Part shown: piece by piece, positions 608-21,399 of the stretch
Numbering within the stretch: the stretch's first letter is position 1
How the letters are laid out: each line of letters begins with the position of its first letter
Virus record (IMG/VR): IMGVR_UViG_3300032282_003033
Location: 1-21,830 of that record
Length of the DNA: 21,830 bases
Reading direction: 5' to 3' (one strand)
Origin: a virus
Notes under the pieces: model-generated
Database searches by the model: none
Seen by the model: the letters and a program-made list of their open reading frames with translations, nothing else
Told to the model about the DNA's origin: nothing
Position numbers and translations under genes: made by a program

Positions 608-610
608 ACC

Positions 611-841
611 ATGACCTACCAACTCACCACCGGCGACAACATCCTCCGCCTAGCGGACAACGCCTTCATCCCACCCGACCCCACCAACACCGACTACGCC
701 GCCTACCTGGAGTGGGTCGCGCAGGGCGGTGTGCCCGAGCCTGCACCAGAACCCGAACCAACACCAGAACCAACACCTCAACAAAAACTTGAGGCTGCTG
801 GTCTTACAGTAGAAGAACTTAAGGAACTTCTAGGTCTCTAA
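611..841 (+). CDS. Small tail-fibre-associated protein with Pro-Glu linker
   Basis: This 76-aa protein starts 3 bases after the fibre gene. The N-terminal part (about 1-40) contains FIPPDPTNTDYAAYLEWV, a motif common in short proteins encoded next to phage tail fibres. A Pro/Glu repeat linker follows (PEPAPEPEPTPEPTPQ), then a short helix ending EELKELLGL. Its function is not established; a fibre accessory or assembly role is inferred only from position. The DNA of the first two thirds is GC-rich like the fibre gene, while the last third is AT-rich like the genes downstream, so the composition break falls inside this gene at the repeat-coding stretch. The stop codon overlaps a late-promoter-like TCTAAATA. 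Confidence 0.7.
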   Translation: MTYQLTTGDNILRLADNAFIPPDPTNTDYAAYLEWVAQGGVPEPAPEPEPTPEPTPQQKLEAAGLTVEELKELLGL

Positions 842-844
842 ATA
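837..844 (+). promoter_or_regulatory. Candidate late promoter TCTAAATA
   Basis: TCTAAATA differs at one base from the T4-type late promoter TATAAATA and lies 16 bases before the start of the structural gene at 860. It overlaps the stop codon of the gene before it, which lowers its information value because TAA gives part of the match. Confidence 0.4.
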
Positions 845-859
845 TTTAAAAAAGGACCA

Positions 860-1261
860 ATGGGAATTCAAATCAGCGGTACAACAAATACAATCAGTCC
901 CACGTCAAATGCATTGAAGTTTCTTGCAATTGCTGCATCAGAATATGTCAATGCACTTGCAAACACTGGAGCAACTCCAACGATTGATTTGTCATTAGGA
1001 AACTTTGTGACCGCAACATTGAATCAGAATGCAACTTTTACATTCTCCAATGCTCCTTCTCAAGCGTGTTCTTTTACATTGGTTCTTACAAATGATGCAG
1101 TTGGTGGAAGAACCATTACTTGGCCTGCATCAGTCAAATGGCCAAACGGAACAGCACCCACAAGAACCTCAACAGCAAGTAGGACAGACATTTATACATT
1201 CTTTACCTACGATTCAGGAACAACCTGGTGGGGTCAATTATCAATGTACAATTACTCATAA
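860..1261 (+). CDS. Beta-rich phage tail/fibre structural protein
   Basis: The protein has 133 aa and a good ribosome binding site (AAAGGA) before ATG. The repeated beta-strand pattern, with FTFSNAPSQACSFTLVLTND, then GRTITWPASVKWPNG and the C-terminal DIYTFFTYDSGTTWWG, matches a short domain I recognise from many phage tail fibre or virion proteins. There is no signal peptide or membrane segment. It sits between the fibre genes and the first oxygenase. I infer a virion location, probably in the fibre or baseplate periphery; the exact role is unknown. Confidence 0.7.
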   Translation: MGIQISGTTNTISPTSNALKFLAIAASEYVNALANTGATPTIDLSLGNFVTATLNQNATFTFSNAPSQACSFTLVLTNDAVGGRTITWPASVKWPNGTAPTRTSTASRTDIYTFFTYDSGTTWWGQLSMYNYS

Positions 1262-1267
1262 TTTCTT

Positions 1268-1858
1268 ATGGATATTCGTTATCATGAATTCATTGGAATG
1301 TATGACAATGTATTTCCTGATGGATTCTGCTCTCACATGATCGAAGAATTTGAGCGTCTTCTGAGTCGGGGTATGTGTGCAAATCGTCAAGACTCAGAAG
1401 GTGCTCGAAAATATAAAAAACAAGATAACTTTTATTTCTTAAACGTTAAGAATCATTCTTTTACATCATTTAACAATATTTCAGTTATTGATATTTTTAC
1501 AACTGGATTGCAAAATTGTTTTGATGAATATGTAAGTGAATATGATATACTGAAAGATATGTCATTAAATTCTACAGTAATTAAAATGCAAAAAACTGAA
1601 CCTGGCGGTGGATATCATATTTGGCATTCAGAACAGGGGAATGGAGAGCAAGCAAATCGTTGTTTAGTTTACTCTGCATATTTGAATAATATTGATGAAG
1701 CGGGAGAAACGGAGTTCTTATATCAACGAGTGAGAATACCTCCAAAAGAAAATACAATGGTAATCTGGCCTGCAGGATTCACTCATACACATCGCGGCAA
1801 CGTTGTGCATGGCAACAAATCTAAATATATCATGACTGGTTGGTTTTATCTGGATTAA
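1268..1858 (+). CDS. 2OG-Fe(II) oxygenase (prolyl 4-hydroxylase-like), copy 1
   Basis: The 196-aa protein has the double-stranded beta-helix signature of Fe(II)/2-oxoglutarate dioxygenases. The first iron ligands are His120 and Glu122 in YHIWHSEQ, an HxE variant of the usual HxD. The distal His is His175 (or 173) in GFTHTHRGN, and a basic residue (Lys184 or Lys186) about ten residues later is placed to bind the 2OG carboxylate. The segment NTMVIWPAGFTHTHRGN is typical of the viral P4H-like group. Such enzymes hydroxylate a protein or small-molecule substrate using O2 and 2OG; the substrate here is unknown. It begins 6 bases after the tail protein gene and ends 3 bases before a Gly/Pro-rich adhesin gene, so co-expression and a possible protein substrate are plausible. 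Confidence 0.85.
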   Translation: MDIRYHEFIGMYDNVFPDGFCSHMIEEFERLLSRGMCANRQDSEGARKYKKQDNFYFLNVKNHSFTSFNNISVIDIFTTGLQNCFDEYVSEYDILKDMSLNSTVIKMQKTEPGGGYHIWHSEQGNGEQANRCLVYSAYLNNIDEAGETEFLYQRVRIPPKENTMVIWPAGFTHTHRGNVVHGNKSKYIMTGWFYLD

Positions 1859-1861
1859 AAG

Positions 1862-2782
1862 ATGTCTTTAAATGCTAGAAAAATTTATCGTGGAAACATG
1901 ACTGCTGCTGGCAGTGTGACTTTTAATGCGCCAGGAACCTGGACAACTCCTGCAAGACTTCTAAGTGTTGATGTTCAAGGTCAAGGTGATGCAGGAAATG
2001 CAGGAAATGCTGGAACCGCAGGAAATGGAGGCACTGGAGGCACTGGAGGAGCCGGTCAAGCAGGTGGCGCCGGTGGTGGCGGCTCTGGAGGGCAATCGAC
2101 CGCCGGCGGAGGCGGCGCAGGACAAGGTGGATCTTTTTCTGGGGGAGCTGCCAATGGAAATAGTGATCAAGCGGGTCAACCGGGATCTGCTGGATCATCG
2201 CAACCAGGATCTGCAGGAAATCCTGGAGGCCCAGGAAGCGCAGGAACAACAGGACAACCATCTTCAGCTCTTGGAGTAATTTTCACTGGTGGATCTGGAG
2301 GTGCTGCAGGATCTGGAAATTCTGGAAACCCAGGAAATGCCGGAGTAGGTGGTAACGGAGGTGCAGCAGGAAATGGCGGTGGTGCCGGCCAGCCGGGTGG
2401 CCCCATAACAAATCACCCTGGAGGCGGAGGTGGATCTCCTGGAGGTCAACCAGGTCAAGCGAGCAACTCTCAAGCAGGTGGAGCAGGAGGTCTTGGTGGA
2501 AGCCCAGGAGGCGGTGGCGGTGGCACCGGCGGCCGGGGGGCTCGAGTAGGAACAATCAATCTCTACGGCGCCGGTGGTGGCGGTGGAGGCGGCGGTTCTC
2601 AAGCGGGCAATCCGGCTGTGTCCAATGGAAACCCAGGAAATGCCGGCACATCAAACCCAGGGCAAGCAGGACAACCAGCAACGCCAAGCACAACACCAGG
2701 AATTGCTGTAACACCACAAACATCTTATCCAATTTCAGTATCTCCAGCAGGATTTGTAACCATCTCTTGGAACTCACAATAA
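1862..2782 (+). CDS. Long glycine-rich tail adhesin-like protein
   Basis: The 306-aa protein starts with a short non-repetitive beta segment (SVTFNAPGTWTTPARLLSVDV, roughly residues 18-38). About 220 residues of Gly-rich sequence follow, with runs such as GNAGNAGTAGNGG, GGAGGGGSGG and GAGGGGGGGGS, then a C-terminal beta end (SYPISVSPAGFVTISW). Short breaks (ALGVIFTG, ARVGTINLYGAG) interrupt the repeats. This pattern resembles the polyglycine-II sandwiches of T-even gp38-type adhesins and similar cyanophage fibre proteins. I infer a receptor-contacting virion protein. I count about 14 Pro-Gly pairs, many preceded by Gln, Asn or Ser, which is notable beside prolyl-hydroxylase-like genes. No cleavage site or membrane segment is seen. 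Confidence 0.75.
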   Translation: MSLNARKIYRGNMTAAGSVTFNAPGTWTTPARLLSVDVQGQGDAGNAGNAGTAGNGGTGGTGGAGQAGGAGGGGSGGQSTAGGGGAGQGGSFSGGAANGNSDQAGQPGSAGSSQPGSAGNPGGPGSAGTTGQPSSALGVIFTGGSGGAAGSGNSGNPGNAGVGGNGGAAGNGGGAGQPGGPITNHPGGGGGSPGGQPGQASNSQAGGAGGLGGSPGGGGGGTGGRGARVGTINLYGAGGGGGGGGSQAGNPAVSNGNPGNAGTSNPGQAGQPATPSTTPGIAVTPQTSYPISVSPAGFVTISWNSQ

Positions 2783-2785
2783 ATA
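2778..2785 (+). promoter_or_regulatory. Candidate late promoter AATAAATA
   Basis: One mismatch to TATAAATA, 22 bases before the gene at 2808 and overlapping the previous stop codon. The match is weak and position-based. Confidence 0.35.
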
Positions 2786-2807
2786 TCAAAAGATCTGAAG
2801 ATTCATT

Positions 2808-3233
2808 ATGGCATCAAAGAAAATATCAAAAACTCGTCAACAAATTCAAGATATCTATGAGGAAAATGAACTTGCGGGATTAAAACAAGGACAATCTCGT
2901 GGACGCTCATTAACTGTTGGAACCGCTGGAGGAGGTATTATTGAACTTTGTATTCGTGGTGATTTTTCGAGTCTCTGGTATCAACTTCCACCAACAGAAG
3001 CAGTCGAACTCATTGGACAATTAGCAGCTGCATCAGGTGTTGAGATTGCAATGCGTCCAAGAAACGATTTTGCTTCGTGGAGATCTTGGGATGCAACACT
3101 TCCAACATCCGTTGCATGGATGGGTGCAGCTCCATGGCAACTTACAGAAGAAGATCGAGCACTCCTAGCAGAAGCAAAAGCAAAAAATATAAAAGCAATT
3201 GAAGGATCTGATAATGACTCAAAACCTGAATAA
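2808..3233 (+). CDS. Conserved phage protein of unknown function
   Basis: The 141-aa protein has a basic N-terminus (MASKKISKTRQQIQDIYEEN), a central mixed segment with GGGIIELCIRGDFSSLWYQL, then an alpha-helical region (TEAVELIGQLAAASG) and an acidic Lys/Asp-rich tail. I do not recognise a named family. Its position between the Gly-rich adhesin and more fibre-region genes suggests expression in the late block. The tail overlaps the next gene by 20 bases. Confidence 0.65.
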   Translation: MASKKISKTRQQIQDIYEENELAGLKQGQSRGRSLTVGTAGGGIIELCIRGDFSSLWYQLPPTEAVELIGQLAAASGVEIAMRPRNDFASWRSWDATLPTSVAWMGAAPWQLTEEDRALLAEAKAKNIKAIEGSDNDSKPE

Positions 3234-3759
3234 TTTTTATGTTTTAGTTGAGATTAAAGAAAAAATAATTATCGATAAAATTCAAAAATTACCAGAATGT
3301 TGGAGAAACATTTCAGGACTACCTGGTTTGTCTGGTGATGAACTTTGCAATCTGACATGGGCAGGATGGAATAATCTTGCGTGGATCAATATTAAATCTG
3401 AAGAACTTAAGAACTTCACATCATCAAAAGAAAATTTAGAATTAAACAAAAACGCATTTAAAGCATTGATATCAGAGATTCGTGAAGAACAACAATCAAA
3501 TGCGATTGAGTATCAAGGTGCAAAAATCAAATCAAATATTAAAACTCTTTATTCGTTATTCCTTCTCAAAGAAAAAAAATCAGTAAACTTTAAGTGCATC
3601 AACGGTTACCATACATTTACGTCCGAGCAAATTAAAGAATTATATGATAGAATGGAATCAAATATGCAAGAATGGTTTGATTGGGAAATGAATGTTTATT
3701 CTCAAATTGATTTGTGTCAAACTATTTCTGATTTTTTAAATGTAAATTATGACTTCTAA
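3214..3759 (+). CDS. Possible DUF4376-like tail accessory protein
   Basis: I chose ATG 3214 because GAAGG lies 8 bases upstream; an earlier in-frame TTG at 3199 has no better signal. The 181-aa product begins with a short beta part (NNFYVLVEI, then LPECWRNISGLPGLSG and LTWAGWNNLAWI). A long helical region follows, with IREEQQSNAIEYQGAKIK and INGYHTFTSEQIKELYDRM. The second half resembles the DUF4376 domain found in phage tail accessory proteins, where a short beta hairpin sits between helices that can form coiled coils. A fibre assembly or virion role is inferred. The gene overlaps both neighbours (20 and 11 bases), which fits translational coupling. Confidence 0.65.
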   Translation: MTQNLNNFYVLVEIKEKIIIDKIQKLPECWRNISGLPGLSGDELCNLTWAGWNNLAWINIKSEELKNFTSSKENLELNKNAFKALISEIREEQQSNAIEYQGAKIKSNIKTLYSLFLLKEKKSVNFKCINGYHTFTSEQIKELYDRMESNMQEWFDWEMNVYSQIDLCQTISDFLNVNYDF

Positions 3760-4399
3760 GTTTTTTTCAAATAAAAACTCTTTTGATTCAATTACTGATC
3801 CAGTTCAACAATCTTGGGGACCTTACTGGCATTTGAATAGTCAAGTTTATGAACCTTATTGTTGGAACACTGGTTCTTTTACTTGTGATGAAATTGAAAA
3901 CATCAAAGTAATTGGTCGAAGACTTGAAATGAATCGAGCTCAAACAGGTGGTGTTGGAGAAAATTGTTTGGATCATCGACGTTCATTTACTTCTTGGATT
4001 ACGTCAAATCAACATACTGCGTGGATATATCAAAAACTGACAAATCTTGTGCTTGAAAATAATGAAAAGTTTTTTAATTTTGATTTAACAATGATTGAAA
4101 ATCTTCAATTTACTTATTATAATTCAAATGAACAAGGATGTTATAAAGCTCACGTAGATCCAAATGTTTGGCAACTACCACATAATCGTAAATTGAGTTT
4201 GGTGATGCAACTTTCGGATCCATCAGAATATGAAGGTGGTGATCTTTTATTGCATACCGCACATAATCCAATCGTGATTAATAAACAAAAAGGAATGCTT
4301 GTAATGTTTCCTTCTTATACATTGCATGAAGTTACTCCCGTCACAAAAGGTGAACGATATTCGTTGGTCGCATGGGTTCATGGTCCAAAGTTGAGGTGA
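3749..4399 (+). CDS. 2OG-Fe(II) oxygenase (P4H/PKHD-like), copy 2
   Basis: The 216-aa protein has a complete dioxygenase motif set. His135 and Asp137 lie in CYKAHVDPN, the distal His193 in YTLHEVTPV, and Arg203 in GERYSLVAWVHG is the 2OG-binding arginine ten residues later. The segment LSLVMQLSDPSEYEGGDLL is typical of the prolyl/lysyl-hydroxylase-like group, in which the GGDL strand forms part of the jelly roll. The reaction class is clear but the substrate is not. It overlaps the preceding gene by 11 bases and is followed 4 bases later by another oxygenase, so the two are very likely made together. Confidence 0.9.
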   Translation: MTSKFFSNKNSFDSITDPVQQSWGPYWHLNSQVYEPYCWNTGSFTCDEIENIKVIGRRLEMNRAQTGGVGENCLDHRRSFTSWITSNQHTAWIYQKLTNLVLENNEKFFNFDLTMIENLQFTYYNSNEQGCYKAHVDPNVWQLPHNRKLSLVMQLSDPSEYEGGDLLLHTAHNPIVINKQKGMLVMFPSYTLHEVTPVTKGERYSLVAWVHGPKLR

Positions 4400-4403
4400 T
4401 ATT

Positions 4404-4970
4404 ATGAGTTTTAAAGAAAATGGTTATTATATCATTCGTGATTTTTTGGAACCAGATTTTGTTAAATTTATTCAGCAATATTTTTTCACAAGAATTAACG
4501 CAGGACAAGCAGAACTTGGTGATGTGCAAGCACCAAACTCTTATATTTTTTATGGGGATCCTTTAATGGATACAATTCTTGGAGAAGCAGCAAAAAAATT
4601 AAGCGAAGTCGCAGAGTATCCTCTGCTTCCCACTTATACTTACACAAGACTTTATGGGAAAGGTGATGAACTTGTCATTCATCGTGATCGACCATCATGC
4701 GAATTATCAGGTACTTTAGCCCTTAGTACTCCTGAAGGAGAAGAAATTAATCCAATTTACTTCAGTCGTAATGAAGATAAATCTGATGCAATTGCTATTC
4801 ATTTAAATCCAGGAGATCTTTGTTTGTATCATGGATGTGATTTATATCACTGGAGGGAACCATTTACACAAAAATGGTATCTTCAATCGTTTCTTCATTA
4901 TGTAAATGCAGAAGGACCACATAAGGACTTTTTATATGATAAGAGACCTTATTTGGGAATGCAGAAATAA
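4404..4970 (+). CDS. 2OG-Fe(II) oxygenase-like protein, copy 3
   Basis: The 188-aa protein begins FKENGYYIIRDFLEPDFV, the usual opening of this fold. Its iron motif is His93-Arg-Asp95 in ELVIHRDRPSCE. The segment PGDLCLYHGCDLYHWREPF supplies the distal His149. The usual Arg/Lys after the distal His is replaced by the WYLQSFLHYVN strand, so the 2OG-contacting residue is less certain. The C-terminus (GPHKDFLYDKRPYLG) matches a subgroup I know from phages and marine bacteria. The substrate is unknown. Its sequence differs strongly from the gene just upstream, so they are not a simple recent duplication. Confidence 0.82.
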   Translation: MSFKENGYYIIRDFLEPDFVKFIQQYFFTRINAGQAELGDVQAPNSYIFYGDPLMDTILGEAAKKLSEVAEYPLLPTYTYTRLYGKGDELVIHRDRPSCELSGTLALSTPEGEEINPIYFSRNEDKSDAIAIHLNPGDLCLYHGCDLYHWREPFTQKWYLQSFLHYVNAEGPHKDFLYDKRPYLGMQK

Positions 4971-4973
4971 ATA
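4966..4973 (+). promoter_or_regulatory. Candidate late promoter AATAAATA
   Basis: One mismatch to TATAAATA, 17 bases before ATG 4991, in an A-rich gap. It overlaps the preceding TAA stop. Confidence 0.35.
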
Positions 4974-4990
4974 AAAATAAAACAGTAACA

Positions 4991-5308
4991 ATGGATAAAC
5001 AAAAAATTTTTGCTTCATTAAATGAAAGTGGTGTGGTTGAAAATTGTTCATCAATCAATTATTCTCATAGTGTAATAGATTGTTCAGCAACAAATAATCA
5101 ACCAGAAATTGGTGCAACGTATGATGCAGAATTAAATGCATTTGTTCCACCACAACCACCCAACACTGACTTCTTTAGCACAGAAACTTATCAATGGGAA
5201 GCAGATCCCAATGTTGTGCATGATATTGATGGTGTAGATTGTCGCTGGAGCCCTAAGTTACAAAACTGGATTCGAGTAGAAAACTGGTCTGACTCAGAAC
5301 ACCTATGA
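4991..5308 (+). CDS. Conserved small phage protein (last gene of late block)
   Basis: The 105-aa protein contains QPEIGATYDAELNAFVPPQP, a Pro-rich stretch seen in many short T4-like cyanophage virion-region proteins, and a C-terminal segment with several tryptophans (CRWSPKLQNWIRVENW). There is no membrane segment. The function is unknown; virion association is inferred only from location. A strong terminator follows 23 bases after the stop, marking the end of this transcription unit. Confidence 0.65.
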   Translation: MDKQKIFASLNESGVVENCSSINYSHSVIDCSATNNQPEIGATYDAELNAFVPPQPPNTDFFSTETYQWEADPNVVHDIDGVDCRWSPKLQNWIRVENWSDSEHL

Positions 5309-5331
5309 CACTTTAAGAAGTGTCTCCATGA

Positions 5332-5358
5332 CCCCTCAGAGCGCCTCTGAGGGGTTTT
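5332..5358 (+). terminator. Intrinsic terminator, 10-bp perfect stem
   Basis: CCCCTCAGAG at 5332-5341 pairs perfectly with CTCTGAGGGG at 5345-5354 around a 3-base loop, followed by TTTT. It ends the structural block. The last T is also the first base of a TATAAT box. Confidence 0.88.
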
Positions 5359-5363
5359 ATAAT
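5358..5363 (+). promoter_or_regulatory. Sigma70-type -10 box TATAAT fused to terminator
   Basis: TATAAT is followed by GGC, as in other promoters of this window (TATAATGGCC). I see no good -35 at 16-18 bases, where the terminator stem lies. A start near 5370 would give a short leader with an AGGAG site before ATG 5385. Confidence 0.6.
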
Positions 5364-5384
5364 GGCTGCAGATAGCAGGAGTCC

Positions 5385-5492
5385 ATGCGACTGTCTTTAA
5401 CCGAAAAACTGGTCTTTATCGGTGCATTTGTGAACTTTTTGCACTGGAGTGTTAAAGTAACTGAATCGGTATTGAATTATGCTCTTTCTTGA
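5385..5492 (+). CDS. Tiny hydrophobic protein (35 aa)
   Basis: A strong AGGAG site lies 3 bases before ATG. The reading frame encodes MRLSLTEKLVFIGAFVNFL and continues to a TGA inside the next gene. The middle (LVFIGAFVNFLHWSV) could span or associate with the membrane. It overlaps the metallopeptidase gene by 14 bases, so a second possibility is that its translation mainly couples ribosomes to that gene, which lacks its own clear binding site. The function is unknown. Confidence 0.55.
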   Translation: MRLSLTEKLVFIGAFVNFLHWSVKVTESVLNYALS

Positions 5493-5916
5493 TATTTCTG
5501 GTTACAACTATTCCAAACGCCGCTGTGAGCGTATTGTAGAGTGGTTTATACAGAAGCACCTTCCCAGACACAAACTGGATATTGTTGTGCATCATCGTGG
5601 CCTGTATCGTGAAGGTGTTTATGGATGGTGTTCTGTAATGGATTGTGATCATCGTCCTCGTGCATTTGAGATTGAGATGCACAACTTCATGACACCAGAA
5701 AACTATACTAAAACCCTTCTACATGAACTCTGGCATGTGTATCAGCATGTCAAAGGTGCTCTAAGAGACAAAGGTCAAAAGAGACTGTGGAAGGGTATTG
5801 ATTGCTCTGAACTTGACTATGAAGATCAACCATGGGAGATTCAAGCATCTCAAATGGAAGAAGTGTTGTATGAAGAATATCTGTGGTACTTGACAGAGTG
5901 TAATAAATCCCTGTAG
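5479..5916 (+). CDS. Predicted zinc metallopeptidase (SprT-like, HExxH)
   Basis: The 145-aa protein has LLHELWHVYQH with the HELWH zinc motif at residues 82-86. A downstream acidic region, DQPWEIQASQMEE, contains Glu120 as a likely third zinc ligand. This arrangement fits small zincins of the SprT/M48-like kind found in phages. The N-terminal half (MLFLDISGYNYSKRRCERIV) forms a predicted alpha/beta start. It should act in the cytoplasm because no signal peptide is present; the target is unknown. A consensus sigma70 -35 lies within its 3' end and the -10 of the next promoter contains its stop codon. It is next to a predicted cysteine peptidase gene. Confidence 0.75.
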   Translation: MLFLDISGYNYSKRRCERIVEWFIQKHLPRHKLDIVVHHRGLYREGVYGWCSVMDCDHRPRAFEIEMHNFMTPENYTKTLLHELWHVYQHVKGALRDKGQKRLWKGIDCSELDYEDQPWEIQASQMEEVLYEEYLWYLTECNKSL

Positions 5917-5919
5917 AAT
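5890..5919 (+). promoter_or_regulatory. Sigma70-like promoter TTGACA-18-TAGAAT
   Basis: A perfect TTGACA at 5890-5895 and TAGAAT at 5914-5919 are 18 bases apart. The TAG of the -10 box is the stop codon of the upstream peptidase gene. It should drive the gene at 5941 with a start near 5926. Confidence 0.7.
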
Positions 5920-5940
5920 ACCTTTGTCCGGGTTCATGAG

Positions 5941-6450
5941 ATGGCTAAGATCGTAGAGAGACACAAATATAACGGAGATCAGATCTATAAGACTCGTCGA
6001 TTAGAATTTGAACCTTACAGATACTCAGAACATAACATGTGTCTGGTGATGGGATTGATTAAACGCAATCTCACATCAGATCTTTTATCAACAAGGTATC
6101 GTGCAGAGAATCAAACAAATCCAACATATGGACATTGCTATCACTCTACACAGGCATTGTTCTATCTGATGGATACTGATAAGTTACAACCGATGAGTGG
6201 TATTGATTACCGTGGTGAGACTCATTGGTGGTTGCAAGATGGAGACAATATCTATGACCTTACTGCGGAGCAGTATCTTTCCGTAGGAAAGCTTCCACCA
6301 TATGCTGTAGGTAAGAAAAGCAAATGGTATGGATGGAAGGGTCGTCCACATCAGAGATCGTTGGATCTCATGGTGAGAGTGCTTGGTGATAAGGTGACTG
6401 ATACTGTGACAGTTGCCGAACTGGTCGGGGGCCTTGACGAGTTCTTCTAA
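5941..6450 (+). CDS. Predicted papain-like cysteine peptidase/amidase-fold protein
   Basis: The 169-aa protein contains GHCYHSTQALFYLM with Cys66 at the start of a helix, then ETHWWLQDGDNIYDLTAEQY with His95 and Asp106. Order and spacing (Cys at a helix N-terminus, His on a strand, then Asp before LTAEQ) match the Cys-His-Asp layout of papain-like and transglutaminase-like folds. The family assignment is inferred from this motif pattern. There is no signal peptide, so it should act in the host cytoplasm. No clear ribosome binding site is seen before ATG. The C-terminal end encodes the -35 of the next promoter. Confidence 0.6.
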   Translation: MAKIVERHKYNGDQIYKTRRLEFEPYRYSEHNMCLVMGLIKRNLTSDLLSTRYRAENQTNPTYGHCYHSTQALFYLMDTDKLQPMSGIDYRGETHWWLQDGDNIYDLTAEQYLSVGKLPPYAVGKKSKWYGWKGRPHQRSLDLMVRVLGDKVTDTVTVAELVGGLDEFF

Positions 6451-6462
6451 ATCGGTTATATT
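6434..6462 (+). promoter_or_regulatory. Sigma70-like promoter TTGACG-17-TATATT
   Basis: TTGACG at 6434-6439 and TATATT at 6457-6462 have 17-base spacing, with GGCCAC following as in other promoters here. The predicted leader to 6533 is about 64 bases and holds a small hairpin (GGAAC-TTA-GTTCC, 6483-6495). Confidence 0.7.
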
Positions 6463-6532
6463 GGCCACATGGTTGAAGGACGGGAACTTAGTTCCTCCCC
6501 AATCATGCTAGAAGTTTCGATTTTACTTAATT

Positions 6533-7702
6533 ATGTCCACTCAAGTTAACACTATTTCGGCTCAAATTTCTTTGGTTTGGGAAAAAACTGCCCAAACAAC
6601 GGCAAACCCTCTTGGTCTGACTGAAGAAATTGTGCAAGAGTCTCTGGTAATGTGCCCTCCTCGTGCGTATGAAGGCGCTACTTTTCTGGGTCGCTATCTG
6701 ATTCCTCGCGTTTTTGTTCGCTACGACTTGAAAGAACAACCGCGTGACAAAAATAACGAACCCGACCACGTTAACAATCTTGTTAACAACTACGAAGTGT
6801 ACGGTTACAAAACCGATTGTCCTCCTCCCATATGTTCCTTTGATGGAGAAGACATGAACCCGACTTCGCTTAAAGCACAGTCTGGTTATAACCGCTTCGA
6901 AGCTCTGACCCGTATTGGTCAAGATCTGTACGTCTTCGATGTTTATAAGTTTGATTCCCTATATTGGGAAATTGTTGCTCGCAACCAGTCTAATCATCAT
7001 GCCAATCCTCAGCTGACTCAAAAAGTCACTGACTACATCAAAGAGGTCTGCAATGCAGTGGATCGTGGTGTGATCGAGCGCACTGAAGATTCTATCAATA
7101 ATTTTGTGGATCTGATTGCTTCTGATCGTTCTGCCAAATCTCGTAAAAAAATTAAAGTTGATTGCTACAACAACTGCCAAGTTTTTCCAAACTTCCGTAC
7201 CTACAACTCTGTTGGTCATTCCGAAAATACTCTGAATGGTTTTATCAAAAACAATGGATTTGCTAAGCAAGGTATTGAAGGTCGTACCGATTCTGAGTTG
7301 ATTGCTCAAGGATATATTTCCTATTGTTGTGGTGCTGGCGACAACAAAGCTACATGGGGTCGTGCTGTAGCACATGCACAACGCCTTGGTATTCCTGTGT
7401 ATATCTTTGGTTACGCACAAAATCGTGTGCCTAATCTGGAAAAGTTCCGCGAAAACTTTATCAATGAGTTCAATGAAATGAAAGCGTTGATGGTTGAATT
7501 TGCCGCAGAACTGTGCGACGTGGATGTTTCCACAATTGATGAGGAATACTTTCCTATCAAACTTGCTGGATTCCTTGCACAATATGTGAAGCCTAATCCT
7601 CAAGATAAGGGTCGCCCGACTGAAGTTGGTCTGGTTGATATGTATGGCAACACGATTGAGTTCGATGGCACTCAAGATTGCTTGTCCCTGACTCAACCCT
7701 GA
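6533..7702 (+). CDS. ParB/sulfiredoxin-like domain protein
   Basis: The 389-aa protein has an N-terminal domain (about 55-160) with ParB features. LIPRVFVRYDLKEQPRD is followed by a segment predicting the LAxSI-like helix (HVNNLVNNYEVYGY), PPPICSF, then the box LKAQSGYNRFEALTRIG, equivalent to the ParB GERRxRA motif, and VARNQSN, resembling the ENLQR end. The C-terminal half has a possible Rossmann-like piece (KATWGRAVAHAQRLGIPVYI) that I cannot place. Phage ParB-like proteins may bind DNA, cleave it or use CTP; which applies here is unknown. It has its own promoter and is followed by a terminator, so it is a single-gene unit. I see no clear Shine-Dalgarno before ATG. Confidence 0.6.
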   Translation: MSTQVNTISAQISLVWEKTAQTTANPLGLTEEIVQESLVMCPPRAYEGATFLGRYLIPRVFVRYDLKEQPRDKNNEPDHVNNLVNNYEVYGYKTDCPPPICSFDGEDMNPTSLKAQSGYNRFEALTRIGQDLYVFDVYKFDSLYWEIVARNQSNHHANPQLTQKVTDYIKEVCNAVDRGVIERTEDSINNFVDLIASDRSAKSRKKIKVDCYNNCQVFPNFRTYNSVGHSENTLNGFIKNNGFAKQGIEGRTDSELIAQGYISYCCGAGDNKATWGRAVAHAQRLGIPVYIFGYAQNRVPNLEKFRENFINEFNEMKALMVEFAAELCDVDVSTIDEEYFPIKLAGFLAQYVKPNPQDKGRPTEVGLVDMYGNTIEFDGTQDCLSLTQP

Positions 7703-7724
7703 TCCAGTCCTAAAACCGTCACAG

Positions 7725-7746
7725 GGGGTCCACAGCGACCCCTTTT
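7725..7746 (+). terminator. Intrinsic terminator upstream of helicase
   Basis: GGGGTC (7725-7730) pairs with GACCCC (7737-7742) around a 6-base loop, followed by TTTT. It ends the ParB-like gene unit. Confidence 0.75.
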
Positions 7747-7751
7747 CGCTG

Positions 7752-7757
7752 TATAAT
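7752..7757 (+). promoter_or_regulatory. -10 box TATAAT for the helicase gene
   Basis: TGTATAATGGCCAT lies right after the terminator T-run. No convincing -35 is visible at 16-18 bases, where the terminator loop lies. It precedes ATG 7779. Confidence 0.65.
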
Positions 7758-7778
7758 GGCCATATTGAAACGCAATCC

Positions 7779-8960
7779 ATGATCACGCTCCGCCCACATC
7801 AACACCGCGCTGTTGCTGCGATGCAGAAGTATAAGAAAGGTCAGATTTTGGTGCCAACGGGAGGGGGTAAGACCCTAAAGATGATCTATGATGTTCTGCG
7901 CCTGTTTCAATCAGAAACTGCCAAGACTGTTGTAGTCTGTGCGCCGCGCATCTTGCTGGCAGAGCAGTTGTCTAGTGAATTTCTTGAGCATATCACTAAT
8001 GCTGAAGTGATGCACGTCCACAGCGGTGAGACCCATCACTACAGCACCACTAAAGTGTCTGAAATTCAGGCACATGATGTTGCTTGCGAGATTGTAAATA
8101 AGCATCAACTGATCTTCACCACCTACAACTCTCTGCAGCGTCTGCAACAGGCAGATATTCACGTCGATACGATTTACTTTGATGAAGCACATAACAGCGT
8201 TCAGCGTCACTTTTTTCCAGCAACCGAGCACTTTGCTTCTACTGCTGACCGCTGCTATTTCTTCACTGCTACTCCTAAGCATTCTACTACTATTTCCAAA
8301 CCTGGCATGAACATGCCTGAAGTTTATGGCCAAGTAATCTGTCAGGTTCCTGCACCTGAACTGGTGGAGCAAGGTTATATTCTTCCTCCTAAGGTTGTTG
8401 TCAAGCAACTGCCGATGGTTAAGGGTAAGCAGGTGATCTTCTCCCGCGATTCTGACAATCTGATTGAGACAATCGACGAGCAAGGTGTTCAGAAGATTCT
8501 GATTTGTGCTCGCACCACCAAACAGATCATCGGTCTGGTATCAGAATCTGATTTCTGTGTGCAACTACAACAGCGCGGTTATTCTTGGATGATGATTACA
8601 TCCAAGACTGGTGCTGTGATTGATGGTCAGAAGGTCAATCGTGAGCAGTTCTTTGACACTCTCAACGCATGGGGTAAAGATTCCTCTAAGAAGTTTGTTG
8701 TGATGCATCATAGCATCCTGTCTGAAGGTATCAACGTCAACGGTCTTGAAGCAGTGTTGTTCATGCGAAACATGGACTACATTGGCATCAGTCAGACCAT
8801 TGGCCGTGTCATTCGACTTGGTGATAAATCCAAGACATTTGGGTTGGTTTGTGTGCCAGTGTATGATAATGTAGGTATCAGCACCTCCCGCAAAGTGCAA
8901 GCGGTGGTCGATACTATCTTCCATCAAGGTCAACCTGCTGTCTCTGTAATCAAACGCTAA
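7779..8960 (+). CDS. uvsW: SF2 DNA helicase, UvsW-like
   Basis: The 393-aa protein carries the ordered SF2 motifs: Q-motif region LRPHQHRAVAAM, Walker A PTGGGKT (26-32), motif Ia CAPRILLAEQ, DEAH (135-138), motif III FTATP (162-166), motif V LSEGINV (314-320) and motif VI SQTIGRVIRLG (338-348). T4 UvsW is an ATP-dependent helicase that unwinds branched DNA and R-loops and helps the switch from origin-dependent to recombination-dependent replication. The present protein is shorter than T4 UvsW (about 500-590 aa), lacking the extra N-terminal domain, so it could instead be another phage SF2 member. It has its own terminator-promoter upstream; the next gene overlaps its stop by one base. Confidence 0.8.
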   Translation: MITLRPHQHRAVAAMQKYKKGQILVPTGGGKTLKMIYDVLRLFQSETAKTVVVCAPRILLAEQLSSEFLEHITNAEVMHVHSGETHHYSTTKVSEIQAHDVACEIVNKHQLIFTTYNSLQRLQQADIHVDTIYFDEAHNSVQRHFFPATEHFASTADRCYFFTATPKHSTTISKPGMNMPEVYGQVICQVPAPELVEQGYILPPKVVVKQLPMVKGKQVIFSRDSDNLIETIDEQGVQKILICARTTKQIIGLVSESDFCVQLQQRGYSWMMITSKTGAVIDGQKVNREQFFDTLNAWGKDSSKKFVVMHHSILSEGINVNGLEAVLFMRNMDYIGISQTIGRVIRLGDKSKTFGLVCVPVYDNVGISTSRKVQAVVDTIFHQGQPAVSVIKR

Positions 8961-9205
8961 TGTTAGAACTCTGGTTATGGCAATTAAATGCAATCGCACC
9001 CTTTGTGGGTGGATTGTGTGTTGACAATTATATCAAGATGCAGGGTGAGCTCTGTAACTTCAGACAACCACCAGCACAGGTTCTTAAGTTTGATAAACAA
9101 GATCCCAAAGATGCTTGCTATCGAGATGGTATCTTCTATCCCCGTTGCAAAGACCTAGATAATCCAGAGGTATTATACTATCACAATCTGTTGAGGGAAA
9201 AGTAA
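8960..9205 (+). CDS. Small protein of unknown function (81 aa)
   Basis: ATG overlaps the helicase stop (TAATG), so translation is likely coupled. The N-terminus (MLELWLWQLNAIAPFVGGLCV) is hydrophobic and could be a membrane anchor. The rest is polar with several Cys (LCNF, ACYRD, YPRCKD). I recognise no family. Confidence 0.6.
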   Translation: MLELWLWQLNAIAPFVGGLCVDNYIKMQGELCNFRQPPAQVLKFDKQDPKDACYRDGIFYPRCKDLDNPEVLYYHNLLREK

Positions 9206-9642
9206 TGGGGATGTTTGACCATCTAAGAAGCTCGTATGATCTGGGAGAACAATTTACAGACGTAGAACTTCACACCAAAGATATTGAAGATGGTATTGGT
9301 GGCACAATGTCACACTACTGGTTAGATCCTGCTGGATACTTATATCACATTGATTATACACACACTGCAGACTTTGTAGTCATTGATGAGAATGATCCTG
9401 AATACAATCATACTTACAAATGGAGAAACTTTAAGTGGGTTCCGAATGGCAATCATGGTAAGATTCGACCATGGATGATTACCAAATATGTGGAAGTGTA
9501 TCCATCTAGATGGGATGGATCATGGGAAAGTTGGCCACGCTTGCGTATTCACTTCAGGTATGGTAAACTTGTAGACTATACTAAAGAAAAGCGAGACTAT
9601 CAAGGCCCATTGTATGCTCCACATCCTGATCTAAAACAATGA
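9205..9642 (+). CDS. Conserved phage protein, MGMFDH family
   Basis: The 145-aa protein starts MGMFDHLRSSYDLGEQF, followed by ELHTKDIEDG and HYWLDPAGYLYHIDYTHT. This opening is familiar from a family spread among many phages, whose function is not known. It is acidic and aromatic-rich with no membrane segment. ATG overlaps the previous stop, and its own end overlaps the next gene by 4 bases, within one early-type operon. Confidence 0.65.
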   Translation: MGMFDHLRSSYDLGEQFTDVELHTKDIEDGIGGTMSHYWLDPAGYLYHIDYTHTADFVVIDENDPEYNHTYKWRNFKWVPNGNHGKIRPWMITKYVEVYPSRWDGSWESWPRLRIHFRYGKLVDYTKEKRDYQGPLYAPHPDLKQ

Positions 9643-9911
9643 ACTTCATTCAATTCAAGCATCGCTATGATTTTGGGCATGAGTATTATGTCCAAATTCT
9701 AAACATCAAACGTAAAAGTTTGCTTCAAGTCTCCGTAAGTTGGAACGATAGTCCATCTTGGCCCTACATTCAAGTCACTTCTGGCAGTGGATCCTTATTG
9801 GGTGCTCTATTCTGGGTATATAAGTTTGGGTTTGATCTTGATCTATTGGGTAGAACTTGGAACTGGGATTACATGGGGAAGGTAGATGGCAAAGAAACTG
9901 AACTGGTTTGA
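9639..9911 (+). CDS. Small protein of unknown function (90 aa)
   Basis: ATGA overlap with the previous stop. The sequence is rich in aromatics and beta-forming residues (HEYYVQILNIKRKSLLQVSV), followed by a weakly hydrophobic stretch (SLLGALFWVYKFGFDL). I recognise no family. The last 26 bases overlap the next gene. Confidence 0.55.
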   Translation: MNFIQFKHRYDFGHEYYVQILNIKRKSLLQVSVSWNDSPSWPYIQVTSGSGSLLGALFWVYKFGFDLDLLGRTWNWDYMGKVDGKETELV

Positions 9912-10239
9912 GTATTGGATTGGTCACTGCTGGATGACAGGGTGGCAGAACATTCGCGGTTCATTTCGCATCTGGGCAGACTTGATGACAGGAAACTATA
10001 AGGATTATGCCCTGATGTGGTATGATGATCCTTATGAGGAGTGTGTTGATTGGTTCTGGCAATGTTTAGGTGATGATGATACTCTGCCCAAAGAGTTTCT
10101 TGAAGGTCTGTTAGAAATGTGTGATAGAATTGATAGAGGTGAAGAGAAAACATACTCTATGGATGAAGTAATGGATCAGTTGAGAGACAGTTTGAAAACT
10201 GACCATCTGGATGTTGATTCTGATTTGGAAGATGTATAA
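9886..10239 (+). CDS. Acidic protein of unknown function (117 aa)
   Basis: A GGGGAAGG site stands just before ATG 9886, supporting this start despite the 26-base overlap. The N-terminal part is Trp-rich (KKLNWFEYWIGHCWMTGWQ). The second half is strongly acidic and helical (DDDTLPKEFLEGLLEMCDRI to the end DVDSDLEDV). Strong acidity is common in small phage proteins that mimic DNA or bind host proteins, but this is only a possibility. The stop codon lies within a TATAAT box. Confidence 0.6.
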   Translation: MAKKLNWFEYWIGHCWMTGWQNIRGSFRIWADLMTGNYKDYALMWYDDPYEECVDWFWQCLGDDDTLPKEFLEGLLEMCDRIDRGEEKTYSMDEVMDQLRDSLKTDHLDVDSDLEDV

Positions 10240-14922: not shown

Positions 14923-15333
14923 ATGGAAGACTTATTCGCATCTCTGAAAGATGTTGTAGTTCCTGATGATTGTTGGCAACCATTTGAGGATGGTTGGAAA
15001 GGTGATTGGATTTATTTCCAAAAAGGTCACATTCCGTGGAATAAAGGAAAGAAAGGAACTTGCCCTCTTCATCAAAAAGAAATAAACAGACAAATGATGA
15101 AGAAAAGATATGAAAATGGATTAAATGTTAGCGGTGCAAATAATCCGAGAGCAAAAACTTGGAGAGTAGTTTATAATGATGGTAGAGAACTCATCATCAA
15201 ATCTATTCATGATTGGGCAATAATGCGAGGTTATAGTAAATCTGGGATTTATAATCTTCGCACAAAGAAATGGAAAAGATACCGAGATCTTGTGACGGTT
15301 GAAGAAGTGTCACAAGCCCCCTTGTCTTTGTGA
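14923..15333 (+). CDS. NUMOD-type homing-endonuclease-like protein without visible nuclease domain
   Basis: ATG 14923 is chosen because it follows the late promoter; an upstream in-frame extension would read through the hairpin. The 136-aa protein starts with LKDVVVPDDCWQPFEDGW, then HIPWNKGKKGTCPLH (NUMOD3-like, about 36-50). It ends with a DNA-binding-like HTH region, SGANNPRAKTWRVVY and KSIHDWAIMRGYSKSGIYNL with KWKRYRDL. No HNH or GIY-YIG catalytic motif is seen. It may be a truncated homing endonuclease, or a DNA-binding partner or repressor. The last codons (SQAPLSL) are encoded by the palindrome of the downstream promoter cassette, and TGA lies beyond its -35. Confidence 0.7.
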   Translation: MEDLFASLKDVVVPDDCWQPFEDGWKGDWIYFQKGHIPWNKGKKGTCPLHQKEINRQMMKKRYENGLNVSGANNPRAKTWRVVYNDGRELIIKSIHDWAIMRGYSKSGIYNLRTKKWKRYRDLVTVEEVSQAPLSL

Positions 15334-15377
15334 TTTGGCTGCTGTATCTTGGCTATGTTGAGAGGAACACAACCGCA
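15309..15377 (+). promoter_or_regulatory. Repeated promoter cassette, copy 1
   Basis: A GTCACAAGCCCCCTTGTC palindrome contains TTGTCT (15322-15327) as -35, then 17 bases to TATCTT (15345-15350), followed by GGCTATGTTGAGAGGAAC. The GAGAGG serves the gene at 15378. The first part overlaps the end of the NUMOD gene. Confidence 0.7.
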
Positions 15378-17976: not shown

Positions 17977-18006
17977 TTGACCACTGCACCCTGGTTCATG
18001 TATTAT
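17977..18006 (+). promoter_or_regulatory. Sigma70-like promoter TTGACC-18-TATTAT
   Basis: TTGACC (17977-17982) and TATTAT (18001-18006) have 18-base spacing; AGCCATGTTCTTGAGGG after it resembles the leader of the repeated cassettes. It drives the gene at 18029 with a GAGGG binding site. Confidence 0.7.
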
Positions 18007-18028
18007 AGCCATGTTCTTGAGGGACACT

Positions 18029-18515: not shown

Positions 18516-18539
18516 GGGGTCTTTACAGATCCCTTTTTT
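18516..18539 (+). terminator. Intrinsic terminator with six-T tail
   Basis: GGGGTC (18516-18521) pairs with GATCCC (18528-18533), one G-U pair, 6-base loop, then TTTTTT. The loop is exactly the -35-like TTTACA of the next promoter. Confidence 0.78.
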
Positions 18540-18549
18540 CATGTATGAT
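18522..18549 (+). promoter_or_regulatory. Sigma70-like promoter TTTACA-16-TATGAT
   Basis: TTTACA (18522-18527) and TATGAT (18544-18549), 16 bases apart, followed by GGCCAC. The start is predicted very near ATG 18556, so the leader is extremely short or absent. Confidence 0.65.
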
Positions 18550-18555
18550 GGCCAC

Positions 18556-19482
18556 ATGAAGAATCTCCATTTGTCCCATCCTGAAGATTCTGCACTCCTC
18601 GGCAAGAAAGCCGTGCAGAATACTATCAACTATCTTCGCAACTGTAAGGGTAATTGCACTGTCAAATACGATGGCGCTCCCGCGATTGTTTTCGGTATCA
18701 ATCCTGAGAATGATAAGTTCTTCGTAGGAACGAAAAGTGTATTCAACAAGGTCAAAGTTAAGATCAATTATACTCACTCGGACATCGAGAAGAATCATAG
18801 CAACAATCCGAAAGTTGCTGCAATTCTTCATACCTGCCTCGCTGAGTTCCCGAAAGACATTAAAGGGATTTATCAGTGTGATTTTATTGGTTATGGTGGT
18901 GAAGTATGCTTTACGCCTAATACTCTTACCTATGACTTTAGTGGGTGCGAAGGTGTATCTGAGTCTTCTATTGTTGCTGTGTGTCATACATCTTATTCTG
19001 GCACAAAGATCTCAGAACTTTATGCAAGCTTTGTTGACTATGCCCATGGTGGTATTTTTGATTCCAATTCTTCTGTTTATTTTGTAGATTGCAATGCACA
19101 ATTTACCACCCGTCGCCGTCGAGTTGATTACATTCTTGGTCTTGCAAGTGTGGTTAGCAATTTTGTTAAGTATCCTGAGACAAAGAAAGAAATCGAAGCG
19201 TTGAAGATTGCGGTCAATAAGTGTATCCGTGAGAATCGTCCAGTTTCTGATGTTCTGAGTGGTAATCTGCTTCTGTTGTTTAATCTGTTGACTCATGCTA
19301 AAATGTTGATCATGGAGGGAATTATGGTCACTGGTGATCAGGTTGATGCAAGAATTGACTTTGACATTGATTACATCCCTGGTCATGAAGGTTATGTTCA
19401 TTCCAACGATTATGGTGCATTTAAGTTAGTCAATCGTCAAGTATTCTCACACTATAACTTCACAATGCCCAAAGGTTGGTAG
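18556..19482 (+). CDS. Predicted nucleotidyltransferase/ATP-dependent ligase-like protein
   Basis: ATG 18556 is used because it lies just after the promoter. The 308-aa protein contains VKYDGAPAIVFG with a KxDG motif (37-40), FFVGTKSVFN, GIYQCDFIGYGGE (104-116), and near the end GHEGYVHSNDYGAFKLVNRQ with EGYV (278-281) and FKLVN (289-293). Motif I (KxDG), a central acidic strand, motif IV (EGxV) and motif V (KxV) appear in this order in ATP-dependent DNA/RNA ligases and capping enzymes. This suggests covalent AMP transfer with Lys37, but the family is annotated in phages as unknown and the middle region (residues 120-250) does not match ligases I know. Promoter and terminator make it a single-gene unit. 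Confidence 0.6.
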   Translation: MKNLHLSHPEDSALLGKKAVQNTINYLRNCKGNCTVKYDGAPAIVFGINPENDKFFVGTKSVFNKVKVKINYTHSDIEKNHSNNPKVAAILHTCLAEFPKDIKGIYQCDFIGYGGEVCFTPNTLTYDFSGCEGVSESSIVAVCHTSYSGTKISELYASFVDYAHGGIFDSNSSVYFVDCNAQFTTRRRRVDYILGLASVVSNFVKYPETKKEIEALKIAVNKCIRENRPVSDVLSGNLLLLFNLLTHAKMLIMEGIMVTGDQVDARIDFDIDYIPGHEGYVHSNDYGAFKLVNRQVFSHYNFTMPKGW

Positions 19483-19497
19483 ACAGCCTGAAAACTG

Positions 19498-19560
19498 GCA
19501 CAAGCCCCCTTGTGCTGAGGAGCCAGATGCTGTATCTTGGCCATGTTGAGAGGAATCCAC
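19498..19560 (+). promoter_or_regulatory. Repeated promoter cassette, copy 2
   Basis: GCACAAG-CCCC-CTTGTGC palindrome with TTGTGC (19510-19515) as -35, 17 bases to TATCTT (19533-19538), then GGCCATGTTGAGAGGAAT before ATG 19561. Confidence 0.72.
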
Positions 19561-20672: not shown

Positions 20673-20866
20673 TGATTGAATTACTTTTAGCAACAACAAT
20701 CGCAGTCAAACCTTACACTCAGATTGATGAATCCATCGACCGTATGTGTGCCTATCGTCTGAACATTCCTTATGCTTCAGATAACATTACTGATCGTGAG
20801 TGGGCACAATTTAAGCTATGCCGTAAAATTATGAACAATGCGATCTACAGTGTGCCAGTCAAATAA
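20672..20866 (+). CDS. Small protein with N-terminal hydrophobic segment (64 aa)
   Basis: TGATG overlap with the previous stop. MIELLLATTIAVKPYTQIDE could be a short signal or anchor. The rest is helical with two Cys (MCAYRLNI, QFKLCRKIM). The function is unknown. Confidence 0.55.
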   Translation: MIELLLATTIAVKPYTQIDESIDRMCAYRLNIPYASDNITDREWAQFKLCRKIMNNAIYSVPVK

Positions 20867-20870
20867 CTGT

Positions 20871-20933
20871 CACAAGCCCCCTTGTGTTGGTTCGTTATTT
20901 CATGTATCTTGGCCATGTTGAGAGGAATCACCC
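20871..20933 (+). promoter_or_regulatory. Repeated promoter cassette, copy 3
   Basis: CACAAG-CCCC-CTTGTG palindrome (20871-20886), TTGTGT (20882-20887) as -35, 17 bases to TATCTT (20905-20910), and GGCCATGTTGAGAGGAATC before ATG 20934. Confidence 0.72.
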
Positions 20934-21327: not shown

Positions 21328-21366
21328 CTGGCTGTCCACCATTCTCCCCACTGGGCAGCCAGGTTT
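21328..21366 (+). terminator. Hairpin terminator before cassette 4
   Basis: CTGGCTGTCCA (21328-21338) pairs with TGGGCAGCCAG (21352-21362), one G-U pair, 13-base loop, then GTTT. The T-run is short, so termination may be partial. Confidence 0.6.
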
Positions 21367-21368
21367 GG

Positions 21369-21399
21369 TATCTTGGCCATGTTGAGAGGAATCACCCCG
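21369..21399 (+). promoter_or_regulatory. Repeated promoter cassette, copy 4 (lacks the palindromic -35)
   Basis: TATCTTGGCCATGTTGAGAG is identical to copies 2 and 3, but the upstream palindrome is replaced by a longer hairpin and I see no -35 at 16-18 bases. Confidence 0.6.

Follow-up and report, generated by a model that had tools for sequence, protein, structure and literature searches.

Among the closest described counterparts of the gene studied here are two ligases of bacteriophage T4, namely the ATP-dependent DNA ligase gp30 (PF01068) and RNA ligase 1 (Rnl1; gp63, PF09511), the latter of which works with the PseT polynucleotide kinase according to the annotation of the T4 record. For cyanomyoviruses, the available part of PMC2984593 reports that homologues of T4 rnh and g30 were not found (rnh with the exception of S-PM2), and it allows that distant homologues may have been missed. 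Phage ATP-grasp RNA ligases are described as Rnl1, Rnl2, and rare divergent versions in the accessible part of PMC7824862, where the protein family DUF6267 is not named among them. Here, we analyzed a DUF6267 gene on a viral DNA stretch of 21,830 nucleotides (IMG/VR record IMGVR_UViG_3300032282_003033, positions 1 to 21,830; hereafter “the window”), for which a sequence-only reading had claimed a ligase-like motif set in a family of unknown function. This claim was borne out, as the 308-residue frame belongs to DUF6267 and its motif residues are invariant in 86 of 86 aligned sequences. The gene is located as follows:

18556..19482, + strand: DUF6267 (PF19782) gene, open from the ATG at 18556 to the TAG at 19482, 308 amino acids, with a predicted covalent nucleotidyltransferase fold

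The protein matches PF19782 with an E-value of 5.9e-73 (246.8 bits against a curated cut-off of 27), which is its sole Pfam match at E-values up to 10, and phrog_455 by score (E 8.2e-100); both families are annotated as of unknown function, and a search of NCBIfam gave no match. Full-text searches of open-licence PMC papers gave no match for DUF6267, PF19782, phrog_455, or T4-GC71, the cluster under which the gene is annotated in phages S-SM1, P-SSM4, and Syn1, and the idea pursued here may have been published elsewhere.

Conserved motifs and predicted fold

DUF6267 very probably adopts the fold of covalent nucleotidyltransferases, a reading that is supported by the predicted structure together with the invariance of Lys37 and the order and spacing of the following motifs:

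18664..18675, + strand: motif I, KYDG, with Lys37 as predicted nucleophile; K37, D39, and G40 in 86/86
18733..18735, + strand: Lys60 at the motif Ia position, FVGTK-SVFNK, to be compared by eye with LFKSKGSI of T4 Rnl1; 86/86, part of a search pattern
18874..18882, + strand: motif III, QxD (Gln107, Asp109), with Asp where T4 Rnl1, Rnl2, and gp30 have Glu
18916..18933, + strand: PNTLTY strand after motif III, Tyr126 in 86/86; to be compared by eye with PTNRIVLAY of T4 Rnl1
19387..19398, + strand: motif IV, EGYV, E278 and G279 in 86/86; third residue aromatic as in T4 Rnl1 and Rnl2
19423..19437, + strand: motif V, K290-L-V-N-R294, with one Lys and an invariant Arg in place of K-x-K

The sequence-only reading had proposed that KYDG, GIYQCDFIGYGGE, EGYV, and FKLVN occur in the order of motifs I, III, IV, and V, and this was confirmed codon by codon: the GIYQCDFIGYGGE stretch contains Gln107 and Asp109, EGYV begins at codon 278, and FKLVN contains Lys290. 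Relatives were collected by pattern scans yielding up to 600 stretches each, of which 80 were kept, and the counts given here are those of these samples, in which many loci are near-identical or lie on shared contigs. Thinning of 165 full-length stretches at 75% identity left 86 for the alignment (A3), with relatives 27 to 76% identical to the window protein. Eleven residues, K37, D39, G40, K60, Q107, D109, Y126, E278, G279, K290, and R294, are invariant in all 86, among them Lys37, whose conservation the earlier reading had anticipated. The count for K60 is biased because its peptide served as a search pattern; none of the patterns in the viral scans feeding the alignment included K37, E278, K290, or R294, and D109 was part of one narrow scan only. 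All of these residues are also present in seven of seven phage records outside the alignment, and the DUF6267 protein of Vibrio phage EniLVp02 keeps all except Q107 (Met). In addition, K37, D39, G40, D109, E278, G279, K290, and R294 are kept in five genome-assembly loci, which were retrieved with patterns containing D39, G40, and K60, whose rows are not all independent, and one of which (L262) seems to lie on a contig from a phage like P-TIM40. Judged by the sequences, the motif set is above chance. Motif IV reads EG[YF]V in 79 of the 86 (EGYV in T4 Rnl1 and Rnl2, EGII in gp30), and the acidic residue of motif III is Asp throughout. At motif V, the first Lys and Arg294 are constant, and the second position is V in 76 sequences, I in 7, and N in 3; since this motif departs from K-x-K, we call DUF6267 a variant branch of the covalent nucleotidyltransferase superfamily.

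The AlphaFold2 model of the window protein, built from the alignment, reached a mean predicted local distance difference test score (pLDDT) of 93.2 and a predicted template modeling score of 0.89. In this model, K37 closes a strand (33-37), D109 lies within another (105-113), E278 immediately precedes a third (279-284), and K290 falls within a fourth (287-292). The best 14 rows of a Foldseek search of the PDB with this model were all ligases. When VIA-align was run on 930 of Foldseek’s chains, the top match was the Naegleria gruberi RNA ligase NgrRnl (Z 9.2, 3.4 Å, 177 residues aligned), and T4 Rnl1 (Z 8.8, 3.5 Å, 163 aligned), T4 Rnl2 (Z 8.2, 3.9 Å, 175 aligned), and T4 DNA ligase (Z 6.2, 4.1 Å, 164 aligned) were also recovered; among the matches listed, 50 of 50 chains were nucleic-acid ligases or ligase-fold domains. 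Z gaps below 1 are ties, and therefore the types of RNA ligase are not told apart by the model. Thus, comparison of a predicted structure with ligases, as the sequence-only reading had suggested, yielded a model that resembles nucleic-acid ligases and related nucleotidyltransferases, and not an unrelated fold.

Beyond the shared fold, the likeness to T4 Rnl1 extends along the sequence. By eye, the layout of Rnl1 is KEDG / LFKSKGSI / FEFVAPTNRIVLAY / EGYV-x9-K and that of the window protein KYDG / FVGTKSVF / YQCDFIG..FTPNTLTY / EGYV-x8-K, so that KxDG, the Ia lysine, and EGYV are common to both, as are a P-(T)-N...Y strand behind an acidic motif III and a lysine that follows the motif IV Glu at a distance of 12-13 residues. 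A weak hhalign alignment, made without structure, pairs E278 with E227 and K290 with K240 of Rnl1. In contrast to Rnl1, DUF6267 has Asp at motif III and K-x-V-x-R for K-x-K, and it lacks the Rnl1 C-terminal domain as well as a detectable PF09511 match. With gp30 and the other PF01068 ligases it has the superfamily fold and the KxDG/EG/K motifs in common, but not the OB domain or motif VI, for which, as for a C-terminal domain, there is no room in a protein that stops 18 residues past Lys290. The aligned part of NgrRnl is its nucleotidyltransferase domain (residues 142-339); NgrRnl is presumably an Rnl5-type RNA ligase, and its N-terminal domain, which we take to be an OB domain, has no counterpart in DUF6267. 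Features of NAD+-dependent DNA ligases were not found, as there is no PF01653 match and only 36 residues precede Lys37, and there is no sequence for the C-terminal OB domain of an mRNA capping guanylyltransferase. The phrog_455 profile itself runs on into a C-terminal cytidylyltransferase-like part that the window protein lacks. On balance, these model-based comparisons incline us to regard DUF6267 as an unrecognized, minimal, OB-less branch whose motif layout is closest to that of T4 RNA ligase 1.

Distribution and gene neighborhood

A DUF6267 relative is encoded in 467 of 50,697 phage records, which by name comprise 369 Synechococcus, 61 Cyanophage, 24 Prochlorococcus, and 13 other records. 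As a search with UvsX of S-SM1 (E 1e-20) matched 375 Synechococcus and 61 Cyanophage records, counts that DUF6267 approaches, the sequence data indicate that the family is close to universal in T4-like cyanophages, and yet it is without an assigned function. The nearest isolate match of the window protein is in Synechococcus phage S-CREM1 (62%). Since the window shares pieces, all of them short, only with 16 phage records that are every one named Synechococcus phage, it is most likely a cyanophage fragment; a tRNA search across the window found none. One relative, in Synechococcus phage metaG-MbCM1 (JN371769.1, 145353-146258; H36), is labeled “NrdB ribonucleotide reductase A subunit” (see also BFVD entry H8ZNG8), a name that is apparently wrong. 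The locus L262 mentioned above (295-10196) lies on a 188-kb contig filed under Nonlabens xiamenensis that encodes UvsX, a gp41-like helicase, DUF6267, and a HIGH enzyme in the same gene order as cyanophage P-TIM40, with nearly the same spacing; it is probably phage DNA inside a bacterial assembly. In a further locus (L015, 2950-4127; also L016-L018), DUF6267 is divided between two frames that overlap (215 and 177 amino acids), with motifs I and III in the first and motifs IV and V in the second, which may represent either a two-subunit version or a frameshift site.

The 165 full-length stretches fall into a short form (n = 87) and a long form (n = 78), the latter with a larger insert ahead of motif IV. 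The window protein is a short form, without a fused partner and without an N-terminal targeting-like peptide. With a hidden Markov model built from matches in these very loci, a HIGH-superfamily nucleotidyltransferase was found with 72 of the 78 long forms (fused in 16, adjacent in 32, and within ~2.3 kb downstream in 24); of the other six, four lack it and two end too soon. Among the 87 short forms, it is adjacent in 10, not seen in 74, and beyond assessment at a contig end in three. Both halves of the HIGH signature occur as variants, N-P-P-T-x-G-H and S-x-x-K-x-R, and when six proteins were tested against PF01467, four scored over the cut-off and two below. In S-SM1, P-SSM4, P-TIM40, and Syn1, DUF6267 is followed by a cytidylyltransferase-like HIGH gene, which occurs in 376 Synechococcus, 61 Cyanophage, and 24 Prochlorococcus records. 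The model of the HIGH domain (pLDDT 92.6) matched PPAT (Z 14.5, 3.0 Å, 156 aligned) in a tie with NadD-type enzymes (Z 13.4-13.6), and Foldseek placed NadD first.

A second linkage concerns a P-loop open reading frame, which, where the sequence continues for 2.9 kb or more past the gene, lies downstream of 23 of 46 long forms versus 0 of 46 short forms. In phage HTVC008M the frame is a gene of its own that matches Zeta-toxin and AAA_33 in Pfam and polynucleotide kinase in PHROG (E 8.5e-8). Pfam searches of nine of the ten non-kinase neighbor proteins gave a match over the cut-off only for the HIGH protein of HTVC008M (DUF5824), for which PF01467 was just under the cut-off. The linkage of HIGH enzyme and kinase in these relatives fits a nucleic-acid end-healing module, and by analogy a kinase and a ligase-fold enzyme would be a pairing like that of T4 PseT and Rnl1. 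On the basis of its modeled fold, the PPAT/NadD likeness of the HIGH partner points to nucleotide metabolism as much as to end repair. Directly upstream of DUF6267, two loci (L101, 4166-4945; L015, 2235-2948) carry a phrog_26930 gene without a Pfam match, in which a D-x(n)-E-x-K...Q pattern like that of PD-(D/E)XK nucleases can be seen by eye.

Candidate functions and competing explanations

With moderate confidence, and guided by the structural model, we favor the reading that DUF6267 is an RNA-ligase-like enzyme that would adenylylate itself on Lys37 and serve nucleic-acid end repair. Lysyl-nucleotide chemistry on Lys37 is, of the parts of this proposal, a probable one, and the odds that RNA-end sealing is the main job of the family fall slightly short of even. 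In the proposed mechanism, Lys37 would attack ATP, or a dinucleotide donor, at the alpha phosphate to give lysyl-AMP, in a nucleotide pocket predicted to be lined by Lys60, Asp109, Glu278, Lys290, and Arg294, and the AMP would then be transferred to an end that bears a 5'-phosphate and is most likely RNA, so that the end could be sealed. The motif layout, the lack of an OB domain, and the kinase favor sealing of RNA ends; the position beside replication genes and the lack of DNA ligase families in seven of seven Kyanoviridae genomes favor sealing of DNA.

Several observations weigh against the RNA-ligase-like reading. The Foldseek E-values are weak (best 0.04), and a Z of ~9 is close to the middling range flagged by VIA-align. 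An hmmsearch of the PDB with the alignment found no ligase and a single chance match (LptH, E 0.64), and hhalign was not significant with either Rnl1 (Probab 0.85, E 0.065, 16 columns) or Rnl2 (Probab 0.16, E 0.36), for which part of the ligase loci was used and one Rnl2 row with stops (L249) was dropped. Moreover, motif V is without its second lysine, motif III has Asp in 86 of 86, the protein has no domain that would bind nucleic acid, and the HIGH partner matches small-molecule adenylyltransferases of the PPAT and NadD types. We discarded a link between DUF6267 and ligases drawn from hmmsearch and hhalign, which by themselves give it no support; the support is the fold. The failure of sequence-only profile methods would also be in line with a chance resemblance of motifs in an unrelated fold, but the model is of high confidence, its best structural neighbors are all ligases, and the motif residues sit on the expected strands, which makes coincidence highly improbable. 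Similarly, the altered motifs III and V and the absence of an accessory domain could indicate a catalytically dead or scaffolding relative of ligases; such a protein, however, would hardly be expected to retain its nucleophile and remaining core residues, which are kept in 86 of 86 sequences at identities down to 27%, and we consider this very unlikely.

A more substantial question is which end, if any, is sealed. DUF6267 could take the place of gp30 as the replicative DNA nick ligase that T4-like cyanophages seem to be missing: in cyanophages its gene sits just past the gp43/uvsX/gp41/mazG block, in EniLVp02 it lies between the replicative helicase and primase genes, and it is near-universal (369/61 Synechococcus/Cyanophage records versus 375/61 for UvsX). 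In the seven Kyanoviridae genomes, PF01068, PF01653, and PF09511 were over the cut-off in none, PF09414 in one, and DUF6267 in all seven, the single PF09414 match being the S-CREM1 RNA ligase, for which there are also PF01068 and PF09511 matches below the cut-off; T4, conversely, has PF01068, PF09511, and PF09414 but no DUF6267. This pattern upholds the earlier statement that T4-like cyanophages often lack a recognizable T4 DNA ligase, in agreement with the available part of PMC2984593. Strict replacement of gp30, which the seven genomes suggest, is nevertheless weakened by three of nine further phage records with DUF6267, one of them EniLVp02, in which a PF01068 DNA ligase is encoded as well; since some of the remaining six are fragments, their lack of PF01068 shows little. 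The missing OB domain and motif VI, the RNA-ligase-like EG[YF]V and Ia lysine, the lower structural match of T4 DNA ligase (Z 6.2), and the ability of a host ligase to substitute (PMC2984593, available part) argue in the same direction, leaving this alternative unlikely. Alternatively, DUF6267 could be a non-sealing AMP or nucleotide transferase and act alongside the kinase and the HIGH enzyme in one nucleotide or cofactor pathway, in which, for example, the kinase would make X-P, the HIGH enzyme X-pp-A, and DUF6267 would either use X-pp-A or modify an RNA end or a host protein. The likeness of the HIGH partner to cofactor adenylyltransferases (nearest to PPAT, with NadD-type enzymes within 1 Z unit, and with NadD and NMNAT as the best Foldseek rows) makes this a serious rival, albeit one that we hold to be considerably less probable than not. 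The HIGH enzyme is, moreover, found in one chain with a kinase-like part following it, an arrangement that recalls NadR, and both the non-canonical motif V and the absence of a nucleic-acid-binding domain speak for this rival. On the other hand, the PHROG matches of the kinase include polynucleotide kinase, and the motif layout of DUF6267 matches that of RNA ligases point by point. With its predicted ligase fold, its linkage to a kinase and a HIGH nucleotidyltransferase, and the signs of virion packaging in relatives described below, DUF6267 makes the missed-ligase question of PMC2984593 testable.

Targeting-like peptides, promoters, and repeated modules

Of 77 distinct long forms, 68 start with the pattern M-x-x-F-x-x-F-[LI]-x-E or close to it, versus 0 of 81 short forms; other frames of at least 150 amino acids have it in 20 of 244 cases in long-form loci and in 5 of 190 in short-form loci. 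Among 72 T4 coding sequences, drawn from three stretches of which one was chosen for its ip genes, the pattern fits two, the internal head proteins ipII and ipIII (MKTYQEFIAEA), and does not fit ipI and alt. According to the available part of PMC3012670, a conserved sequence for capsid targeting is common to the internal proteins, which counteract restriction enzymes of the host. The cytidylyltransferase T4-GC190, the neighbor of DUF6267, was found in purified S-SM1 virions (PMC3037559, available part), and its N-terminus, MKKFSAFLNEA, carries the targeting-like pattern. T4-GC71 is not named in the available part of PMC3037559, whose proteome table is in the supplement. Given the HIGH partner in the S-SM1 virion and the shared peptide pattern, long-form DUF6267 is, by analogy, plausibly in the virion too. 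It is tempting to speculate, albeit tentatively, that a T4-like capsid-targeting peptide brings long-form DUF6267 and its HIGH partner into the phage head, from which both would be injected along with the genome as an RNA/DNA end-repair or nucleotide-transfer kit that would act before phage gene expression, while short forms, which lack the peptide, would instead be expressed at once from a leaderless private promoter. In this scenario, the ligase-like enzyme might even draw its AMP from a dinucleotide produced by the HIGH partner. Internal-protein-like peptides also occur in other cyanophage and methylophilales-phage proteins near DUF6267 (L251, 7155-7745; L102, 3881-4966), and the pattern could serve for a genome-wide listing of candidate injected proteins.

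Upstream of the window gene, two features were identified:

18522..18549, + strand: sigma-70-like promoter, TTTACA-16-TATGAT, whose -10 match ends 6 nt before the ATG
18516..18539, + strand: terminator-like hairpin (18516-18533) with a T run, upstream of the gene and overlapping the -35 element

Because the sigma-70 scan by itself was not above shuffles (two found, 3.2 expected), we examined the position of the promoter across relatives. The full promoter recurs at this position in 33 of 77 distinct short-form upstream stretches (mean of 3.6 and maximum of 11 in mononucleotide, not dinucleotide, shuffles), and a -10 match ends 4-12 nt before the ATG in 53 of 77 (mean 16.5, maximum 28). A Shine-Dalgarno-like string is present in 3 of 77 short forms versus 31 of 73 long forms. 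With just 6 nt between the -10 match and the ATG, the transcript of the window gene is likely leaderless. From sequence, the short form looks like a leaderless gene with private transcription, and the long form looks like part of an operon and encodes a targeting-like peptide. The earlier proposal of a private promoter and terminator thus holds for the promoter only, as the hairpin precedes the gene. A terminator downstream was not confirmed: the hairpin there was rejected as a DUF6267 terminator, being part of a repeat (D4) common to 15291 and 20851, and we read the hairpin-like stretch past the stop codon as a putative part of the promoter module of the next gene.

These repeated modules (AACTGTCACA-hairpin-...GTATCTTGGCCATGTTGAGAGGAA) lie at 15291-15367, 19479-19555, and 20851-20927 of the window, with related sequences at 21351-21393, 17995-18015, and 18538-18558, and probably form a family of units that combine terminator and promoter, with near-leaderless starts. 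Elsewhere in the window, at 1862-2782, a frame of 306 amino acids without a PHROG match is rich in 9-nt repeats, which make its product glycine-rich.
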